Shown: positions 25,066 through 32,532 of the stretch, one piece after another | Layout of the letters: the number at the start of each line of letters is the position of its first letter | How positions within the stretch are numbered: position 1 is the stretch's first letter | NCBI GenBank assembly: GCA_016871575.1 | Contig: VHCW01000051.1 | Coordinates: 1 to 33,714, forward strand | Length of the DNA: 33,714 nucleotides | Reading direction: 5' to 3' | Source: Verrucomicrobiota bacterium | GTDB taxonomy: Bacteria > Verrucomicrobiota > Verrucomicrobiia > Palsa-1439 | Position numbers and translations under genes: made by a program | Notes under the pieces: model-generated | The model's database searches: none | Seen by the model: the letters and a program-made list of their open reading frames with translations, nothing else | What the model was told of the DNA's origin: nothing

Positions 25066-26505
25066 CTACCAAACGATTTCCAAGGCGTGAACTATTTTCC
25101 GGTAGCGTTCGTACTTCTCCGCCATGGAAGAGCGCGGTTCGTGACGGCGCGCGATCTTCGTCATCGCCTTCACCGCCTCCGCGTAGCTGGCGTAACATCC
25201 CGCTGCAACGGCTGCCGCGATGGCTGCGCCGAGCGCGCCGAGTTCGCTTCCCGCCGGCACCTCGACGGGAATCTGGAAACAATCGGCAAACAGTTGCACC
25301 CACACCTCGCTGCGGGCCGCCCCGCCGGTGAAACGCACGACTTCCGGCGGCGGACGGAATTGAAGGAGGCGTTGCAGATGCCAATGGTGGGCGAACACGA
25401 TTCCTTCATAAACCGCCCGCAACACGTCAGCGCGCGTGTGCCGGCCTTCGAGGCCGACGAGTGACGCTTTCGCCGACGGATGCGCGTTGGAACCGTACAG
25501 GAACGGCACAAACACAAGGCGCGGATCCGTTGCCGCTGTCGTGACGAGTTTGTTGCATTCGTCGTAGGAAATTCCGTAGTCGGCAAGGAACCATTCCAGG
25601 TTCGCCGTCGAGGTCGGACTGGCTTCGAGCATCAGGTAGTAGCCGGGAATGCTGTAGCACGAACTCATAAACAGGTCCTTGTCCACCAGCGGCTGTTTCG
25701 CGATGTACTGGCTGATGCCCCACGTGCCGGCAACGACGGTCATCTGCTGTTCGTCCACCAATCCCGCGGCCAGCCCGCAAGCATCCACATCAAACATCCC
25801 GCCGGCGACCGGCGTTCCGGCCGCGAGGCCGGTCGCAGCGGCAGCTTGGGGCGTGACCTTGCCGCAAATCTCCGCCGTCTTCGCCAGCGGCGGCAACAGT
25901 CGCTGCATCTCGCCGATGCCGAACGCCTCCAACACGCTCGCGTCGTACTGGGCCGTCACGACGTTCATCAAGCTCGTGGCCGACATGTCGCTCAACTCCG
26001 CCCGCGCCTCGCCGGTGAGCCTGAACCGAATGTAGTCTTTGCACATCAACGCCCATTTTGTCCGTCTCAACGTCTCCGGCTCGTTGTCGCGCAGCCATGC
26101 CAGTAAGGCGTTCGGTTGCCCCGGCCAAAGGCACTGAGCGGTCTTTGGCAGCACGTTCTCCCACACGCCCTCGGCGCGCCAACGTTCGATGTGGCGTTGT
26201 GCCCGGTTGTCAGTCGAATAAATCCCGTTGCGGACCGGCAGGCCGTCGTGCCCGACAAGATATAGCCCGTTTCCGTGGCCCGACCCCGCGATGCAGGCGA
26301 TGTCGCGCGGGTTGATCCGCGATTTGACAAGCACCTCGCGGATGGCCTCGGCGGTGCCGTGCCAGAGAGTGTTGGCGTCGCGCTCGTGCGGCGCCGCCAT
26401 CCCGGCCTTTCGGCCCGCGACAGCGACCTCGTCGCCGTTGAGCGTGAAGAGCGCAGCCTTCGAGACAGTGCCGCCGTTGTCAATGCCTAGCAGGTACTGG
26501 GGCAT
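25066..26505 (-). CDS. FGGY-family carbohydrate kinase (xylulose/L-xylulose kinase-like)
   Basis: A 479-residue sugar kinase. The N-terminal phosphate motif is LGIDNGGTVSKAALF, with DNGGT as in LyxK-like members rather than the more common DxGT. The catalytic Asp is in GGMFDVDACGLAAG. The second domain has VVAGTWGISQYI and the adenosine motif FTGGAARSEVWVQLFADCFQ followed by EVPAGSELGALGAAIAA. The length is typical. FGGY kinases phosphorylate pentuloses, hexuloses, glycerol or similar; LyxK-type is my best guess. No isomerase, epimerase or transporter lies nearby. The two exported propeller proteins follow in the same direction. Confidence 0.93.
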   Translation of the reverse strand: MPQYLLGIDNGGTVSKAALFTLNGDEVAVAGRKAGMAAPHERDANTLWHGTAEAIREVLVKSRINPRDIACIAGSGHGNGLYLVGHDGLPVRNGIYSTDNRAQRHIERWRAEGVWENVLPKTAQCLWPGQPNALLAWLRDNEPETLRRTKWALMCKDYIRFRLTGEARAELSDMSATSLMNVVTAQYDASVLEAFGIGEMQRLLPPLAKTAEICGKVTPQAAAATGLAAGTPVAGGMFDVDACGLAAGLVDEQQMTVVAGTWGISQYIAKQPLVDKDLFMSSCYSIPGYYLMLEASPTSTANLEWFLADYGISYDECNKLVTTAATDPRLVFVPFLYGSNAHPSAKASLVGLEGRHTRADVLRAVYEGIVFAHHWHLQRLLQFRPPPEVVRFTGGAARSEVWVQLFADCFQIPVEVPAGSELGALGAAIAAAVAAGCYASYAEAVKAMTKIARRHEPRSSMAEKYERYRKIVHALEIVW

Positions 26506-26639: not shown

Positions 26640-27809
26640 ATGAAGACGCACGGCGTTATTGTCATCGGCGGCTACATCAACGGCCTTGGCTTGTTGCGCG
26701 CGTTGGCGTCGCGAGGGATTCCCAGGGCAGTCATCACAACGAAACCCTACGACATCGCGCAATACTCGCGCTGTATCGCAGGTCACGCGGCGGCGCTGGA
26801 TTTGGGCGAACGTCCGGAATCGTTGTTGGAGGTCCTGGAGCGACGCGCCTCGGAATGGAAGGGTTGGGCGTTGTTGCCGTCCAACGACGAAGCGTTGGCG
26901 GCGTTGGCGCTGCATCATGAACGGCTTTCAGCGGCGCATCTCGTGATGGGGCCGATGCAGGGAGTGGCGGACTATTTTCTGGACAAGGCGAAGATGCTGG
27001 AGTTGGCGCGGGCCGTCGGACTGTCCGTCCCGCGTTGGTATCGTGACGCAGCGGGCGTGCCGTTTCCCGTGTTGGTCAAGCCATTGGCCGGGTACCGGTT
27101 TGCGCCGCGGTTTGGGTGCAAGCTGTTCGTGGCGCGAGACCGAAAGGCGTTGGATGCTTGCCTTGCCCAAGCCGCGGCGGCGGATTGTCCGTGCCTGTTG
27201 CAGGAATACGTTCCGGGACCGGATTCAGAGATTCATGTCTATTGCCTCTATGTGGACGGCAACGGCGAACCGAGCGCAGGTCTGACACTGCGCAAGCTTC
27301 GGCAAAGCCCGCCTTTTTTTGGCGTCGCGCGCATGATGGAACTCATTGAACACAACCCGGCCTTGCGCGAGGCAACCGTGGAGATGGCGCGTCGGATCGG
27401 TTTTCGCGGAATCCTGGAAGCGGAGTTCAAGCGTGACGCTCGCGATGGGACTTTCCGGTTCCTAGAGTTCAATGGACGCTCGATCCTTTCCAATGCGCTC
27501 TTGCGGAAGGGGGGGATGGATGTGGCATGGCTTGCGTGGTCGGATTACGTGGAAGGCCGTCCGGAGGTGGTGCGCGCGAACGGCTGGCCCGGCGTGTGGG
27601 TCAACCTGCATGCGGATCTGGCGTACTCGACGCTGTATCGCCATCTCGACCCGATCAGCCTGCGCGAGTTTGTGACGCCGTACCGTCGCCCGGTCCTTGA
27701 GGCGGTCTGGTCGTGGCGGGACCCGTTGCCGTTTGCGGTACAGTGGACGCGACTGCGCGGAACTTCCGCCCCGAAACGCGCGCCAACTCCGTCCGGTGCT
27801 CCGCTGTGA
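26640..27809 (+). CDS. ATP-grasp domain ligase
   Basis: A 389-residue ATP-grasp protein. The ATG at 26640 (MKTHGVIVIGGYINGLGLLRAL) is chosen because it opens the usual Rossmann-like N-domain; GAGGG lies about 8 nt upstream. Motifs: PVLVKPLAGYRFAPRFGCKLF (ATP-binding Lys), LLQEYVPGPDSEIHVYCLYVD (nucleotide-gripping Glu) and FRFLEFNGRSILSNALLRKGG (the E-x-N-x-R metal site). The C-terminal SWRDPLPFAVQW is typical of ATP-grasp proteins in polysaccharide or cell-surface loci. It should join a carboxylate to an amine or thiol through an acyl-phosphate; the substrates are unknown. Its last 155 bp overlap the convergent PaaK-like gene. Confidence 0.9.
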   Translation: MKTHGVIVIGGYINGLGLLRALASRGIPRAVITTKPYDIAQYSRCIAGHAAALDLGERPESLLEVLERRASEWKGWALLPSNDEALAALALHHERLSAAHLVMGPMQGVADYFLDKAKMLELARAVGLSVPRWYRDAAGVPFPVLVKPLAGYRFAPRFGCKLFVARDRKALDACLAQAAAADCPCLLQEYVPGPDSEIHVYCLYVDGNGEPSAGLTLRKLRQSPPFFGVARMMELIEHNPALREATVEMARRIGFRGILEAEFKRDARDGTFRFLEFNGRSILSNALLRKGGMDVAWLAWSDYVEGRPEVVRANGWPGVWVNLHADLAYSTLYRHLDPISLREFVTPYRRPVLEAVWSWRDPLPFAVQWTRLRGTSAPKRAPTPSGAPL

Positions 27810-29031
27810 TAAGCGCGTCGGCGCCCAGCAGACGGTCGAGCAGGGGACGGGCGCGTTCGAGGGCGCGCTGAAAGGAAGGCCCGTCCACGGTCACCAGCAT
27901 CAACGAGAACCGACGGGGTTCGTGCTGCGTAAGTTGGTACTGGAGCACCTCGCGGTCGTCCTTGAACACCTGCCAGACCGCGCGCGGATGCACGTGCCGT
28001 CCATCGGCAAGCGGCAAAATGTCCTCCACGCGACCTTCGAGTTCCGAAAGCACGCGGAACGTGCGTCCACAAGGACAAGGCACCGGCGAGATTGAGCCGA
28101 GATCACCGATCGGATAGTTGAGCAACACGGTTGCGCGGTTGATGAGATTGCTGATGACGACTTGGCCTTGTTGTCCCGGCGGAAGGATGCGGACGTGACA
28201 CAGATCTTCGTGGATGTGAAAGCCACGGCGTTGTTCGCAGAAGAAGCCGATCTTGAAGGACTCGACGGCGTTGTAACGCGACATCACGGGAATCCCGAAC
28301 TGTTCCTCGATGAACTCGCGCGCCCCGTGCGGCAACGCCTCGCCCATGTACATCACCAACTGTGGCGGACGCAGCGCGAGGTTTCGGGCGGCCACCGCGC
28401 GAAAGAACAACGCGACCCAGCCTCCGTAGCCCACGAGGATGTCCGGGCGTTCCGTGTTCGCCAGCTCGACGATGCGTTCGATTGGTTCGGTCAGCGACAG
28501 CGTCCGCCGGCGCGGGCGGACGGGAAGCATCGTGTGTTGTTCGTAGAACGCGATGACTTTCTTGAACGTCGAGGTGTCGTAGCCGACGTAGAGTTCCTTC
28601 GGGCGGAACGAACCGCCGCAGAGCCGGTTCACGGGGTCGCGCTCGCGTTCGCCGTGCGGGATGTTCGCCAACAACGAGTCGTGGTCATGGTGAATCTCGA
28701 CGGGCGCGCCCGTCGAGCCGCTTGTGAGAAACGAAAGCGTCCGTCGCGCGTTCTCCGCCACGAACAGGCGCGGCTGAGCGCGAACCAGTTCCTTGTTGAG
28801 CACCGGCAGGCGGTCGAGTTCGGCTGCGCCCTTGATGCTGCGCGGGTCAATTCCCTCACGGGCGAACCACTCGCGATAATACGGAACGTGCCGGGCGGCG
28901 TGGCGGACGATGTCGCGAATGCGGCGGTCGCGGAGCGCGTCGAGTTTCTCGCGCGGGTAAAACGGGGCGCGCCGCTGGCCGCTCAACCAGTGCGCCGCGA
29001 TCACGGCGTTGCCTCGAAGGCGTTGGATCAT
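27655..29031 (-). CDS. PaaK/CapK-like adenylate-forming enzyme
   Basis: A 458-residue phenylacetate-CoA ligase-like protein. The ATG at 29031 (MIQRLRGNAV) has a strong GGAGGGG site 2-8 nt upstream. Adenylation motifs: the P-loop LSFLTSGSTGAPVEIHHD, YMGEALPHGAREFIEEQFG, RYNAVESFKIGFFCE, the Asp-bearing LNYPIGDLGSISPVPCPCGRT and LEGRVEDILPL. The C-terminus SGRKFRAVAS is the family end and carries the catalytic-type Lys. A 29-residue Pro/Thr/Gly tail follows. CapK-like relatives are found in capsule loci. It overlaps the Ldh2-like gene by ATGA and the ATP-grasp gene in antisense. Confidence 0.92.
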   Translation of the reverse strand: MIQRLRGNAVIAAHWLSGQRRAPFYPREKLDALRDRRIRDIVRHAARHVPYYREWFAREGIDPRSIKGAAELDRLPVLNKELVRAQPRLFVAENARRTLSFLTSGSTGAPVEIHHDHDSLLANIPHGERERDPVNRLCGGSFRPKELYVGYDTSTFKKVIAFYEQHTMLPVRPRRRTLSLTEPIERIVELANTERPDILVGYGGWVALFFRAVAARNLALRPPQLVMYMGEALPHGAREFIEEQFGIPVMSRYNAVESFKIGFFCEQRRGFHIHEDLCHVRILPPGQQGQVVISNLINRATVLLNYPIGDLGSISPVPCPCGRTFRVLSELEGRVEDILPLADGRHVHPRAVWQVFKDDREVLQYQLTQHEPRRFSLMLVTVDGPSFQRALERARPLLDRLLGADALITAEHRTELARVSGRKFRAVASTVPQTATGPATTRPPQGPGDGTASQTRAG

Positions 29032-30119
29032 TTCCCCTCCAGCAGAAACGGCGCGCCGCACGCCCGGCAGACCGCGCGCAGGTCTTCAACCACTCCCCGC
29101 GACAACGGAATCCCGCTCCGGCTTCGTTCCGCATAGGCAGCGCGTTCCGGATCGCCGGCAACGAGCACCGGCTGCAACGAGTCGAGCGGTTTCGTGGCGC
29201 GCAGATCGTCCACCAGACCGTCAATATCCGCGGCAAAGCCATCGCGGAACTGTTGCGGATCAAGCGCGAGAAAGAAATGGCCGACTCCCTCCATCGCGCC
29301 GGGGAGCAACGTGGCGAGAATCTGCATCGCCACGGCGAGGCCGTACCCTTTGTGGCCGCCCAGCGGTGTAAGGCGTCGCTGTTGGTAGGCGCGCCGCGGA
29401 TTGGTCACGGGATAACCTTTGGCGTCGAGCGCCCAGCCGACGGGGAGCGCGTCGCCGGTGCGCCACGCCTCAACCAGCCGTCCCAGCGGCACCGTGCTCG
29501 TCGCCATGTCGAGCACGAACGGCTCGTTGCGGGCCGACGGCGCGGCAAACGCGATGGGGTTTGTGCCGAGTTTTGCTTCGACACCAAATGTCGGCACGAC
29601 GGCCGGCTCGGCGGTGTCTGTGGTGACGAGGCCGATGAACCCGGATTGCGCCGCAATCAACGCGTATGCACCCGCGGCGCCGAAATGGCCGGAGTTGCGG
29701 ACGGCGACCGCGGCGAGTCCGGTCGCGCGGCACTTGGCAATGGCAAGTTTCATCGCCATGTCGGCGGGAACGTGCCCGAGTCCGCCACCGCCGTCGAGCA
29801 ATGCCGTGGTCGGACCGTCGCGGACCACTTCGATCTGCGGCTTCATCGTCAATGTGCCGGCGCGCAGCAACCGATGATAGTGCAACAACATTGCGCAGCC
29901 GTGAGAGTCAATCCCGTGCAGGTCGGCGTACATCATGTGATCGAGCGTGATCTTGGCGTGCTCGTCCGACATAGCCCACGCGCCGAGGATTGCCGCCATT
30001 TGCCGTCGGAGCATTTCGGAAGCAACCACCTGGCGCGGCCACCAGCCGAGCACCGGCAGGCCAAGCCTGTCTGCCACCAGAGAGAGAGTCCACAACGGCC
30101 CGGAGGTTCGCAATGACAT
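29028..30119 (-). CDS. Ldh2-family malate/L-lactate/L-sulfolactate-type dehydrogenase
   Basis: A 363-residue NAD(P)-dependent oxidoreductase of the Ldh2 family. Motifs: MMYADLHGIDSHGCAML (conserved DSHG), AVAVRNSGHFGAAGAYALIA (catalytic His), GTNPIAFAAP, FVLDMATSTVPLGRL and LGGHKGYGLAVAMQIL. It reduces or oxidises a 2-keto/2-hydroxy acid. The first 30 residues or so (to GWWPRQ) precede the normal family start, so an internal start (GTG or ATG near VVASEML) is possible. The loop between LLPGA and GHFFLALDP is shorter than I expect. Its stop overlaps the PaaK-like start, so a hydroxy/keto acid may be fed to that adenylating enzyme. Confidence 0.9.
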   Translation of the reverse strand: MSLRTSGPLWTLSLVADRLGLPVLGWWPRQVVASEMLRRQMAAILGAWAMSDEHAKITLDHMMYADLHGIDSHGCAMLLHYHRLLRAGTLTMKPQIEVVRDGPTTALLDGGGGLGHVPADMAMKLAIAKCRATGLAAVAVRNSGHFGAAGAYALIAAQSGFIGLVTTDTAEPAVVPTFGVEAKLGTNPIAFAAPSARNEPFVLDMATSTVPLGRLVEAWRTGDALPVGWALDAKGYPVTNPRRAYQQRRLTPLGGHKGYGLAVAMQILATLLPGAMEGVGHFFLALDPQQFRDGFAADIDGLVDDLRATKPLDSLQPVLVAGDPERAAYAERSRSGIPLSRGVVEDLRAVCRACGAPFLLEGK

Positions 30120-30195
30120 GCGCGGATTCTAGAAGCGCGCCAGAGACAGTCAAGCTGCATTGCATTTGTCCGCGGCTCGGGGTAAGAAGTGGCGC

Positions 30196-31188
30196 ATGAA
30201 TGTGCGAGGAAAAACTTATCGGGCGGTCTGGATGCCGGGCCGCGACGTCGTTGTCATTGACCAGCGGTTGTTGCCGCACCGGTTCAAGCTGTTGCGGTTG
30301 CGAAACCACCGTGAGACTGCGGAGGCAATCCGCAACATGACAATCCGCGGCGCCGGCACCATCGGCGCAACGGCGGCCTACGGCATGGCACAGGCGTTTC
30401 TCGAAGGCGTTTCACTCCCCAAAGCGTACGAAACACTGGTCACGACACGTCCAACGGCGGTGGACCTGAAGCACGCGCTCGACCGTGTGTTGGTTGAGGC
30501 GCACGATGCAAAGACGGCCGTCGCTGTCGCAGAGCGGATTGCCGATGAGTATGTCGCCCGGATGAAACGGATTGCTGAAATCGGCTGTCCGCTGATTCCC
30601 AAGAACGGGCGCGTTCTGACGCACTGCAACGCCGGCTGGCTGGCCATCGTGGACTGGGGGAGCGCCACCGCGCCAATTTATGCCGCGCATCGAAAAAGAC
30701 GCGGCGTCTTCGTGTGGGTGGACGAAACGCGTCCCCGTTGCCAAGGGGCGCACCTCACCAGTTGGGAACTGTTGAACGAAGGCGTCCCGCACAAGGTCAT
30801 TGCCGATAATGCTGCCGGATATTTCATGCGACATGGCGACGTGGATCTCTGCATTGTCGGGGCCGACCGGATTGCGGCCAACGGCGACACAGCCAACAAA
30901 CTCGGCACGTACGAAAAGGCGGTGCTCGCAAAAGAGAACGGCATTCCGTTTTACATCGCCGCACCCAGTTCGACGATTGACCCGCACTGTCCGAATGGCG
31001 ACTCCATTCCCATCGAGGAACGCAGCGAGGACGAAGTGCATTTCGTCGGCGAAACACGGGTGACACCGCGCGGCGCGCGCGCTGCCAACCCCGCGTTCGA
31101 TGTGACGCCCGCCAAGTACATCACCGGAATCATCACCGAACGCGGCATCCACAAGCCCGGCGAAGTACGGAAACTATGGAGGCAGTAA
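30196..31188 (+). CDS. mtnA: S-methyl-5-thioribose-1-phosphate isomerase
   Basis: A 330-residue MtnA of the eIF2B-like fold, which converts methylthioribose-1-phosphate to methylthioribulose-1-phosphate. The ATG at 30196 (MNVRGKTYRAVWMPG) fits the family start. Motifs: NMTIRGAGTIGATAAYGMA, the active-site Cys in VLTHCNAGWLA, WVDETRPRCQGAHLTSWEL and the active-site Asp in IVGADRIAANGDTANKLGTY, then APSSTID. It ends GIITERGIHKPGEV. No other methionine-salvage genes (mtnK, mtnB, mtnD) are in the window. The HAD phosphatase gene starts inside its 3' end (13-bp overlap). Confidence 0.96.
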   Translation: MNVRGKTYRAVWMPGRDVVVIDQRLLPHRFKLLRLRNHRETAEAIRNMTIRGAGTIGATAAYGMAQAFLEGVSLPKAYETLVTTRPTAVDLKHALDRVLVEAHDAKTAVAVAERIADEYVARMKRIAEIGCPLIPKNGRVLTHCNAGWLAIVDWGSATAPIYAAHRKRRGVFVWVDETRPRCQGAHLTSWELLNEGVPHKVIADNAAGYFMRHGDVDLCIVGADRIAANGDTANKLGTYEKAVLAKENGIPFYIAAPSSTIDPHCPNGDSIPIEERSEDEVHFVGETRVTPRGARAANPAFDVTPAKYITGIITERGIHKPGEVRKLWRQ

Positions 31189-31918: not shown

Positions 31919-32305
31919 TCATGCGCGTTTCGAGTTGGCCTTCAACCACTCCGCGTAGGCGGCTTCGGACATTTCCCCGGCAGCCAAGGCCAGTGTCCGC
32001 ACGACAGCGTCAGCTTCCTCCGCCTGAAACCGGTAGCCATTGAGTTCGAGGAATGACACGGACGCGGTGAACCCGATTCGCTTGTTGCCGTCCACAAAGG
32101 GATGATTCTTCGCCAAGCCGAAGCCATAGCTGGCTGCAAGTTCAAAGACAGTTGGCTTTCCGTAGGCGAATAGATGTTGTGGCCGCGCCAAAGCTGAGTC
32201 AAGCAGATGCTCGTCGCGCAGTCCGGCCGACCCGCCAAATTGCGCCAGCAATTCCTCCTGCACGGCGAGCACGGTCTCGCGCAGCACCCAAACCGGCTCT
32301 TTCAC
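31919..32305 (-). CDS. doc: Doc-type (death-on-curing) Fic-fold toxin
   Basis: A 128-residue Doc protein with a GTG start that overlaps the antitoxin stop (GTGA). The Fic/Doc catalytic motif is NHPFVDGNKRIGFTAS, matching HPFxDGNKR with the active His. The N-terminal helices have the usual Doc pattern (GLRDEHLLDSALARPQHL). Doc of phage P1 phosphorylates EF-Tu and halts translation. Here the partner is an AbrB-like antitoxin rather than the P1-type Phd, a known but less classical pairing. It is convergent with tRNA-Asn. Confidence 0.95.
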   Translation of the reverse strand: MKEPVWVLRETVLAVQEELLAQFGGSAGLRDEHLLDSALARPQHLFAYGKPTVFELAASYGFGLAKNHPFVDGNKRIGFTASVSFLELNGYRFQAEEADAVVRTLALAAGEMSEAAYAEWLKANSKRA

Positions 32306-32532
32306 TTGGCCAATTCCCGGAGCGTGTTGCGGTAACGATTCAGAACGTCCTGCGCCACCGCCAACTGTCGCGCGACTTCGGCCCTATGTGGGCTGATGCG
32401 CAGGCTGCCATCGGCGGCTTCCGTGACGCTGACCGTGTCGCCCTCCCCGACCTTCAGATGACTAAGTGCCTGTTTGGGCAGGATCACGCCCACCGAGTTG
32501 CCGACCTTGCGGATTTTGAGTTCGAGTACCAT
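32302..32532 (-). CDS. AbrB/MazE-family antitoxin
   Basis: A 76-residue protein with a swapped-hairpin AbrB DNA-binding domain at the N-terminus (LKIRKVGNSVGVILPKQALSHLKVGEGDTVSVTE). A helical C-terminal part (EVARQLAVAQDVLNRYRNTL) probably wraps the Doc toxin. It precedes the toxin and overlaps it by 4 bp, the usual antitoxin-first order. Just upstream are two similar quasi-palindromic octamers that could be its operator. Confidence 0.93.
   Translation of the reverse strand: MVLELKIRKVGNSVGVILPKQALSHLKVGEGDTVSVTEAADGSLRISPHRAEVARQLAVAQDVLNRYRNTLRELAK

Follow-up and report, generated by a model that had tools for sequence, protein, structure and literature searches.

The window analysed here is a 33.7 kb contig (33,714 nucleotides) from a Verrucomicrobiota draft genome of 5.19 Mb, and it contains a trio of enzyme genes flanked by an FGGY kinase and MtnA (Table 1). 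The preliminary description of this DNA had read the trio as an Ldh2-type dehydrogenase gene coupled to that of a PaaK-like adenylating enzyme, opposite an ATP-grasp ligase gene. This layout holds: the dehydrogenase stop and the PaaK-like start share four bases, and the ATP-grasp gene lies on the other strand and so is not in the Ldh2/PaaK operon. Also as described, no acyl carrier, glycosyltransferase or transporter gene was seen directly adjoining the trio in the window. An alternative GTG start for the PaaK-like gene, at 29061, is less likely than the ATG at 29031. Further along, at 31919-32532, a gene for a Doc/Fic-like protein (HPFVDGNKR motif) overlaps a small AbrB-like upstream gene by four bases; this pair has the look of a toxin-antitoxin system, with an HsdM-like gene beside it at the contig end.

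Table 1. Coordinates of the three enzyme genes, their overlaps and their neighbours in the window.
Feature	Position	Strand	Basis
FGGY kinase, left of trio	25066-26505		
Predicted ATP-grasp superfamily ligase, 389 aa	26640..27809	+	ORF, invariant columns, profile match, Foldseek
ATP-grasp/PaaK 3' ends, tail-to-tail overlap of 155 bases	27655..27809	.	
PaaK-like (ANL class) adenylate-forming enzyme, 458 aa from ATG at 29031	27655..29031	-	
ATGA overlap, Ldh2 stop/PaaK start (translational coupling)	29028..29031	-	Sequence
Ldh2 (malate/L-lactate/sulfolactate dehydrogenase-like) NAD(P)-dependent oxidoreductase, 363 aa	29028..30119	-	PF02615, alignments
MtnA, right of trio	30160-31188		

Using two conserved PaaK peptides as queries, we scanned 84,980 species genomes and followed up with tblastn, obtaining 80 PaaK loci. 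One of these, in a Gemmatimonadaceae MAG (L025), carries Ldh2, PaaK and ATP-grasp genes (56%, 61% and 52% identity, respectively) in exactly the order and orientation of the window. Another, on a Binatia MAG contig (L021), has Ldh2 and PaaK, with the contig ending inside PaaK; an ATP-grasp search of the same genome found a second contig (L105) that ends just past an ATP-grasp gene (50%), and we infer that the two contigs are apparently the halves of one broken trio. Searching the phylum sample to which the Binatia genome belongs, we also found a complete trio in a Binatota genome (L118, G1099), again in the window's order and orientation. In total the trio occurs in four genomes from lineages assigned to three phyla; as several copies come from MAGs, mis-binning could inflate the phylum count, though not the count of distinct copies with different flanks. 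Because the scan can miss non-matching copies, L118 having lain outside its 80 loci, the rarity of the trio is approximate. Apart from the window's own genome, it was absent from the 11 family, 286 class and 388 phylum genomes sampled, and plasmids yielded only distant ATP-grasp matches, all below 60% identity (about 24-30% among the 20 matches listed). A genome of the same genus (G001) has, of the three, only a PaaK relative, at L014:4152-5555, broken by two in-frame stops; that gene adjoins arginine-biosynthesis-like genes (an aminotransferase and an ornithine carbamoyltransferase-like gene). We found no description of the trio, or of PaaK with ATP-grasp, in the literature, a weak negative given that subscription journals fall largely outside the coverage.

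All four copies share the four-base overlap between Ldh2 and PaaK, as ATGA or GTGA (RTGA), and in both L025 and L118 the 3' ends of the PaaK and ATP-grasp genes are about 12 bases apart or less. The tree of each protein unites the trio copies in a single clade, with support of 100/100 for PaaK and 99/99 for both ATP-grasp and Ldh2. Their flanks share no other specific gene: the best 70 of 160 matches contained, besides antisense shadows of the trio itself, nothing but a generic match to an ABC ATPase, and no hidden small gene or carrier, precursor peptide gene or cofactor gene of at least 50 aa was common to them. The trio of Ldh2, PaaK-like and ATP-grasp genes is a real but rare inherited unit, and the compact three-enzyme unit of the preliminary description is borne out, inherited together across three assigned phyla with nothing else specific shared around it. 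The preliminary description is supported in part, since its proposed course, in which a keto or hydroxy acid would be made, activated and joined to an amine, is no more than a possible order of steps. That description had also taken rare co-occurrence as a sign of chance adjacency; the rarity is literally there (four genomes), but shared order, overlap and monophyly mean that it does not imply chance. We therefore reject chance adjacency of three unrelated genes as exceedingly improbable, for while no other class- or phylum-sample genome has the trio, its repeats at L025, L118 and L021/L105 agree in order, strand, overlap and monophyly amid differing flanks.

The PaaK tree groups the window copy with the Binatota copies, which suggests, on sequence, transfer between phyla; the branch joining the window and L021 has support of 96/70 only. 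In GC3 and codon usage the trio does not stand out from the rest of the window's genes. Recent acquisition was rejected on this compositional evidence, and any transfer into this lineage would not be recent.

Assignment of the dehydrogenase to the Ldh2 family by its sequence is certain: it passes the Pfam PF02615 cut-off with 349 bits against 38.8 (E=3.2e-104), and alignments show that it keeps both invariant catalytic histidines (His44 and His116 in AllD). These features are common to the Ldh2/L-sulfolactate dehydrogenase-like family (AllD, ComC, YiaK, DpkA, HcxB). Two others are points of difference. Roughly 30 additional N-terminal residues are common to all four trio copies and absent from the three E. 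coli enzymes in the alignment, and the position of AllD Arg48 holds Met in 4/4 copies, unlike an AllD-type ureidoglycolate dehydrogenase. Arg48 is essential in AllD, the R48A mutant being inactive (PMC3527362). Met at this position makes an ordinary small 2-hydroxy-acid substrate less certain for the trio enzyme; it is also found in the nearest non-trio Ldh2 and in E. coli HcxB, whereas most other aligned relatives retain Arg. HcxB accepts bulkier aromatic oxo acids, and by analogy the shared Met would point to a trio Ldh2 substrate that is larger or carries less charge. The nearest non-trio Ldh2 (L136:9095-11973 in genome G152, 50%) adjoins a DapA-family lyase. The window Ldh2 itself lacks loop residues near GHKGYGL and before GHFFLALDP that the other trio copies have.

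The PaaK-like protein has the TSGSTGAP loop, the YNAVES, YPIGD and GRVED motifs and the C-terminal Lys, so that the TSGSTG, GD and GR signatures of ANL enzymes are all present together with a PaaK fold. It has no Pfam match at E<=0.001 and matches PaaK-like NCBIfam models only below their cut-offs, scoring 58.7 bits against the 646 set for the phenylacetate-CoA ligase equivalog TIGR02155. Profile and fold comparison placed it with PaaK1/2, BT_0428, NatL2, ClxA and 2-hydroxyisobutyryl-CoA ligase. It shares fold and adenylation motifs with solved members of the PaaK/phenylacetate-CoA ligase family (2y27, 4r1l, NatL2 6siw, ClxA 9s3l, HCL 6hdw), but identity in the fold alignments is only about 18-24%. 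PaaK homologues of known activity often act as CoA ligases, and the trio enzyme may therefore make a thioester that is used by an unlinked acyltransferase.

The third protein is placed in the ATP-grasp superfamily by its modelled fold and by conserved Lys, Glu and Asn positions. Lys116, Lys147, Glu262, Glu276, Asn278 and Arg280 are invariant columns in alignments A2 and A3. The protein had no Pfam match, no PDB match by single-sequence search and an NCBIfam match below cut-off; a profile built from it and three relatives matched structures of biotin carboxylase, carbamoyl-phosphate synthetase, D-Ala-D-Ala ligase and L-amino acid ligase. Foldseek with the structure model, modest in quality at a mean pLDDT of 67, likewise matched biotin carboxylase, L-amino acid ligase 3vot, PurK and PylC, the top matches being mostly biotin carboxylases.

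Our leading interpretation, to which we give a probability of about 0.4, is that the trio is one inherited, carrier-free biosynthetic unit making a small amide or pseudodipeptide. Ldh2 would convert a small acid between an oxo (or imino) form and a reduced one, and so set its oxidation state. The PaaK-like enzyme would adenylate a small carboxylic acid, possibly that of Ldh2, and hand the acyl group to an amine with or without CoA as an intermediate. A second acyl bond would come from the ATP-grasp enzyme by way of an acyl phosphate, and either ligation could come first; the product would arise without a carrier protein or NRPS. All three proteins retain their catalytic motifs, and the nearest folds include amide and acyl-adenylate makers (L-amino acid ligase, PylC, PaaK, NatL2, 2-hydroxyisobutyryl-CoA ligase). 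Several points speak against this reading: the ATP-grasp gene is outside the operon of the other two, PaaK homologues are often CoA ligases, the ATP-grasp model is modest with mostly biotin carboxylases as its top matches, and no exporter or resistance gene adjoins the trio.

There are precedents for such a pair of ligases. DdaG, an adenylating amide ligase, and the ATP-grasp enzyme DdaF in dapdiamide synthesis, CysC and CysD in cystargolide synthesis, and Cp1D and Cp1B in E-64 synthesis each form a pair of amide bonds with no NRPS involved (PMC12568646, PMC11427300). As in dapdiamide-type pathways, the trio has an ATP-grasp and an adenylating ligase side by side, a likeness that extends to its chemistry by analogy at best. 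The adenylating enzymes of those pathways are described as amide-bond synthetases, a description that sets them apart from the PaaK-like enzyme, and warhead or other tailoring genes of their type are absent at the trio. We know of no Ldh2 partner in the dapdiamide, cystargolide or E-64 pathways.

The two ligase families also meet elsewhere. Within the stretches of flank covered, this ATP-grasp family occurs at only three of the 80 PaaK loci, L025, L086 and L088. A locus from the Gemmatimonadota sample (L110) has a sister ATP-grasp gene followed by a different PaaK, as an overlapping pair. Distant members are found at three further loci: L086 has ATP-grasp then PaaK; at L115, PaaK, a glycosyltransferase and ATP-grasp are consecutive genes; and in an Omnitrophota MAG (L088:12500-16189) PaaK, glycosyltransferase and ATP-grasp are fused in one 1229-aa frame within a glycosyltransferase-rich cluster. 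The two families therefore come together in several settings, polysaccharide clusters included. The pairs at L086, L088 and L115 adjoin or are fused, much as in the trio, but their proteins fall in other clades and lack Ldh2, and L088 and L115 have glycosyltransferases. Separately, PaaK cousins in Caldithrix, HR37 and Gemmatimonadaceae (L022, L023 and L024; 40-48% to the window copy) have a conserved methyltransferase nearby, which is about 41-47% identical from locus to locus, forming another recurring pair.

These settings bear on the main rival, a serious one although we think it unlikely, in which the ligases decorate a surface polysaccharide or lipid: an acyl group or amino acid, formed with the help of Ldh2, would be attached to a sugar amine or uronic acid of a glycan made elsewhere in the genome. 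The distant relatives in glycosyltransferase clusters, consecutive at L115 and fused at L088, speak for it, as do the PaaK cousins near the methyltransferase; yet in none of the four genomes is a glycosyltransferase or polymer export gene common to the trio's surroundings, and the PaaK and ATP-grasp proteins of the glycosyltransferase clusters belong to other clades.

Catabolism or salvage is less probable still. Here the PaaK-like enzyme would join an acid to CoA as a thioester, Ldh2 would oxidise a hydroxy acid and the ATP-grasp enzyme would have a separate role. Catabolic functions are common among Ldh2 and PaaK enzymes, and the lyase next to the nearest non-trio Ldh2 fits such a role; however, no uptake, beta-oxidation or ring-cleavage genes were seen beside the trio, and an ATP-grasp ligase conserved with Ldh2 and PaaK favours synthesis. 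Poorer odds attach to the idea that the trio modifies a protein, peptide or cofactor instead of a free metabolite: ATP-grasp enzymes do modify proteins and peptides too, but no precursor peptide or cofactor gene was common to the flanks at the 50-aa threshold.

Small-amide synthesis thus remains our preferred reading of the trio. The stronger form, an undescribed carrier-free three-enzyme pathway that has spread between phyla and yields a hydroxy-acid- or reduced imino-acid-derived amide through PaaK-like amide ligation, we regard as doubtful. With two ligases, a dehydrogenase and no other conserved neighbour, the trio is a minimal set that can be expressed and assayed whole. If it makes an amide, it would be a new type among the few known NRPS-independent two-ligase pathways and a pointer to an adenylating ligase for biocatalysis, and it would open a first way into the metabolites that uncultured Verrucomicrobiota, Gemmatimonadota and Binatota make.
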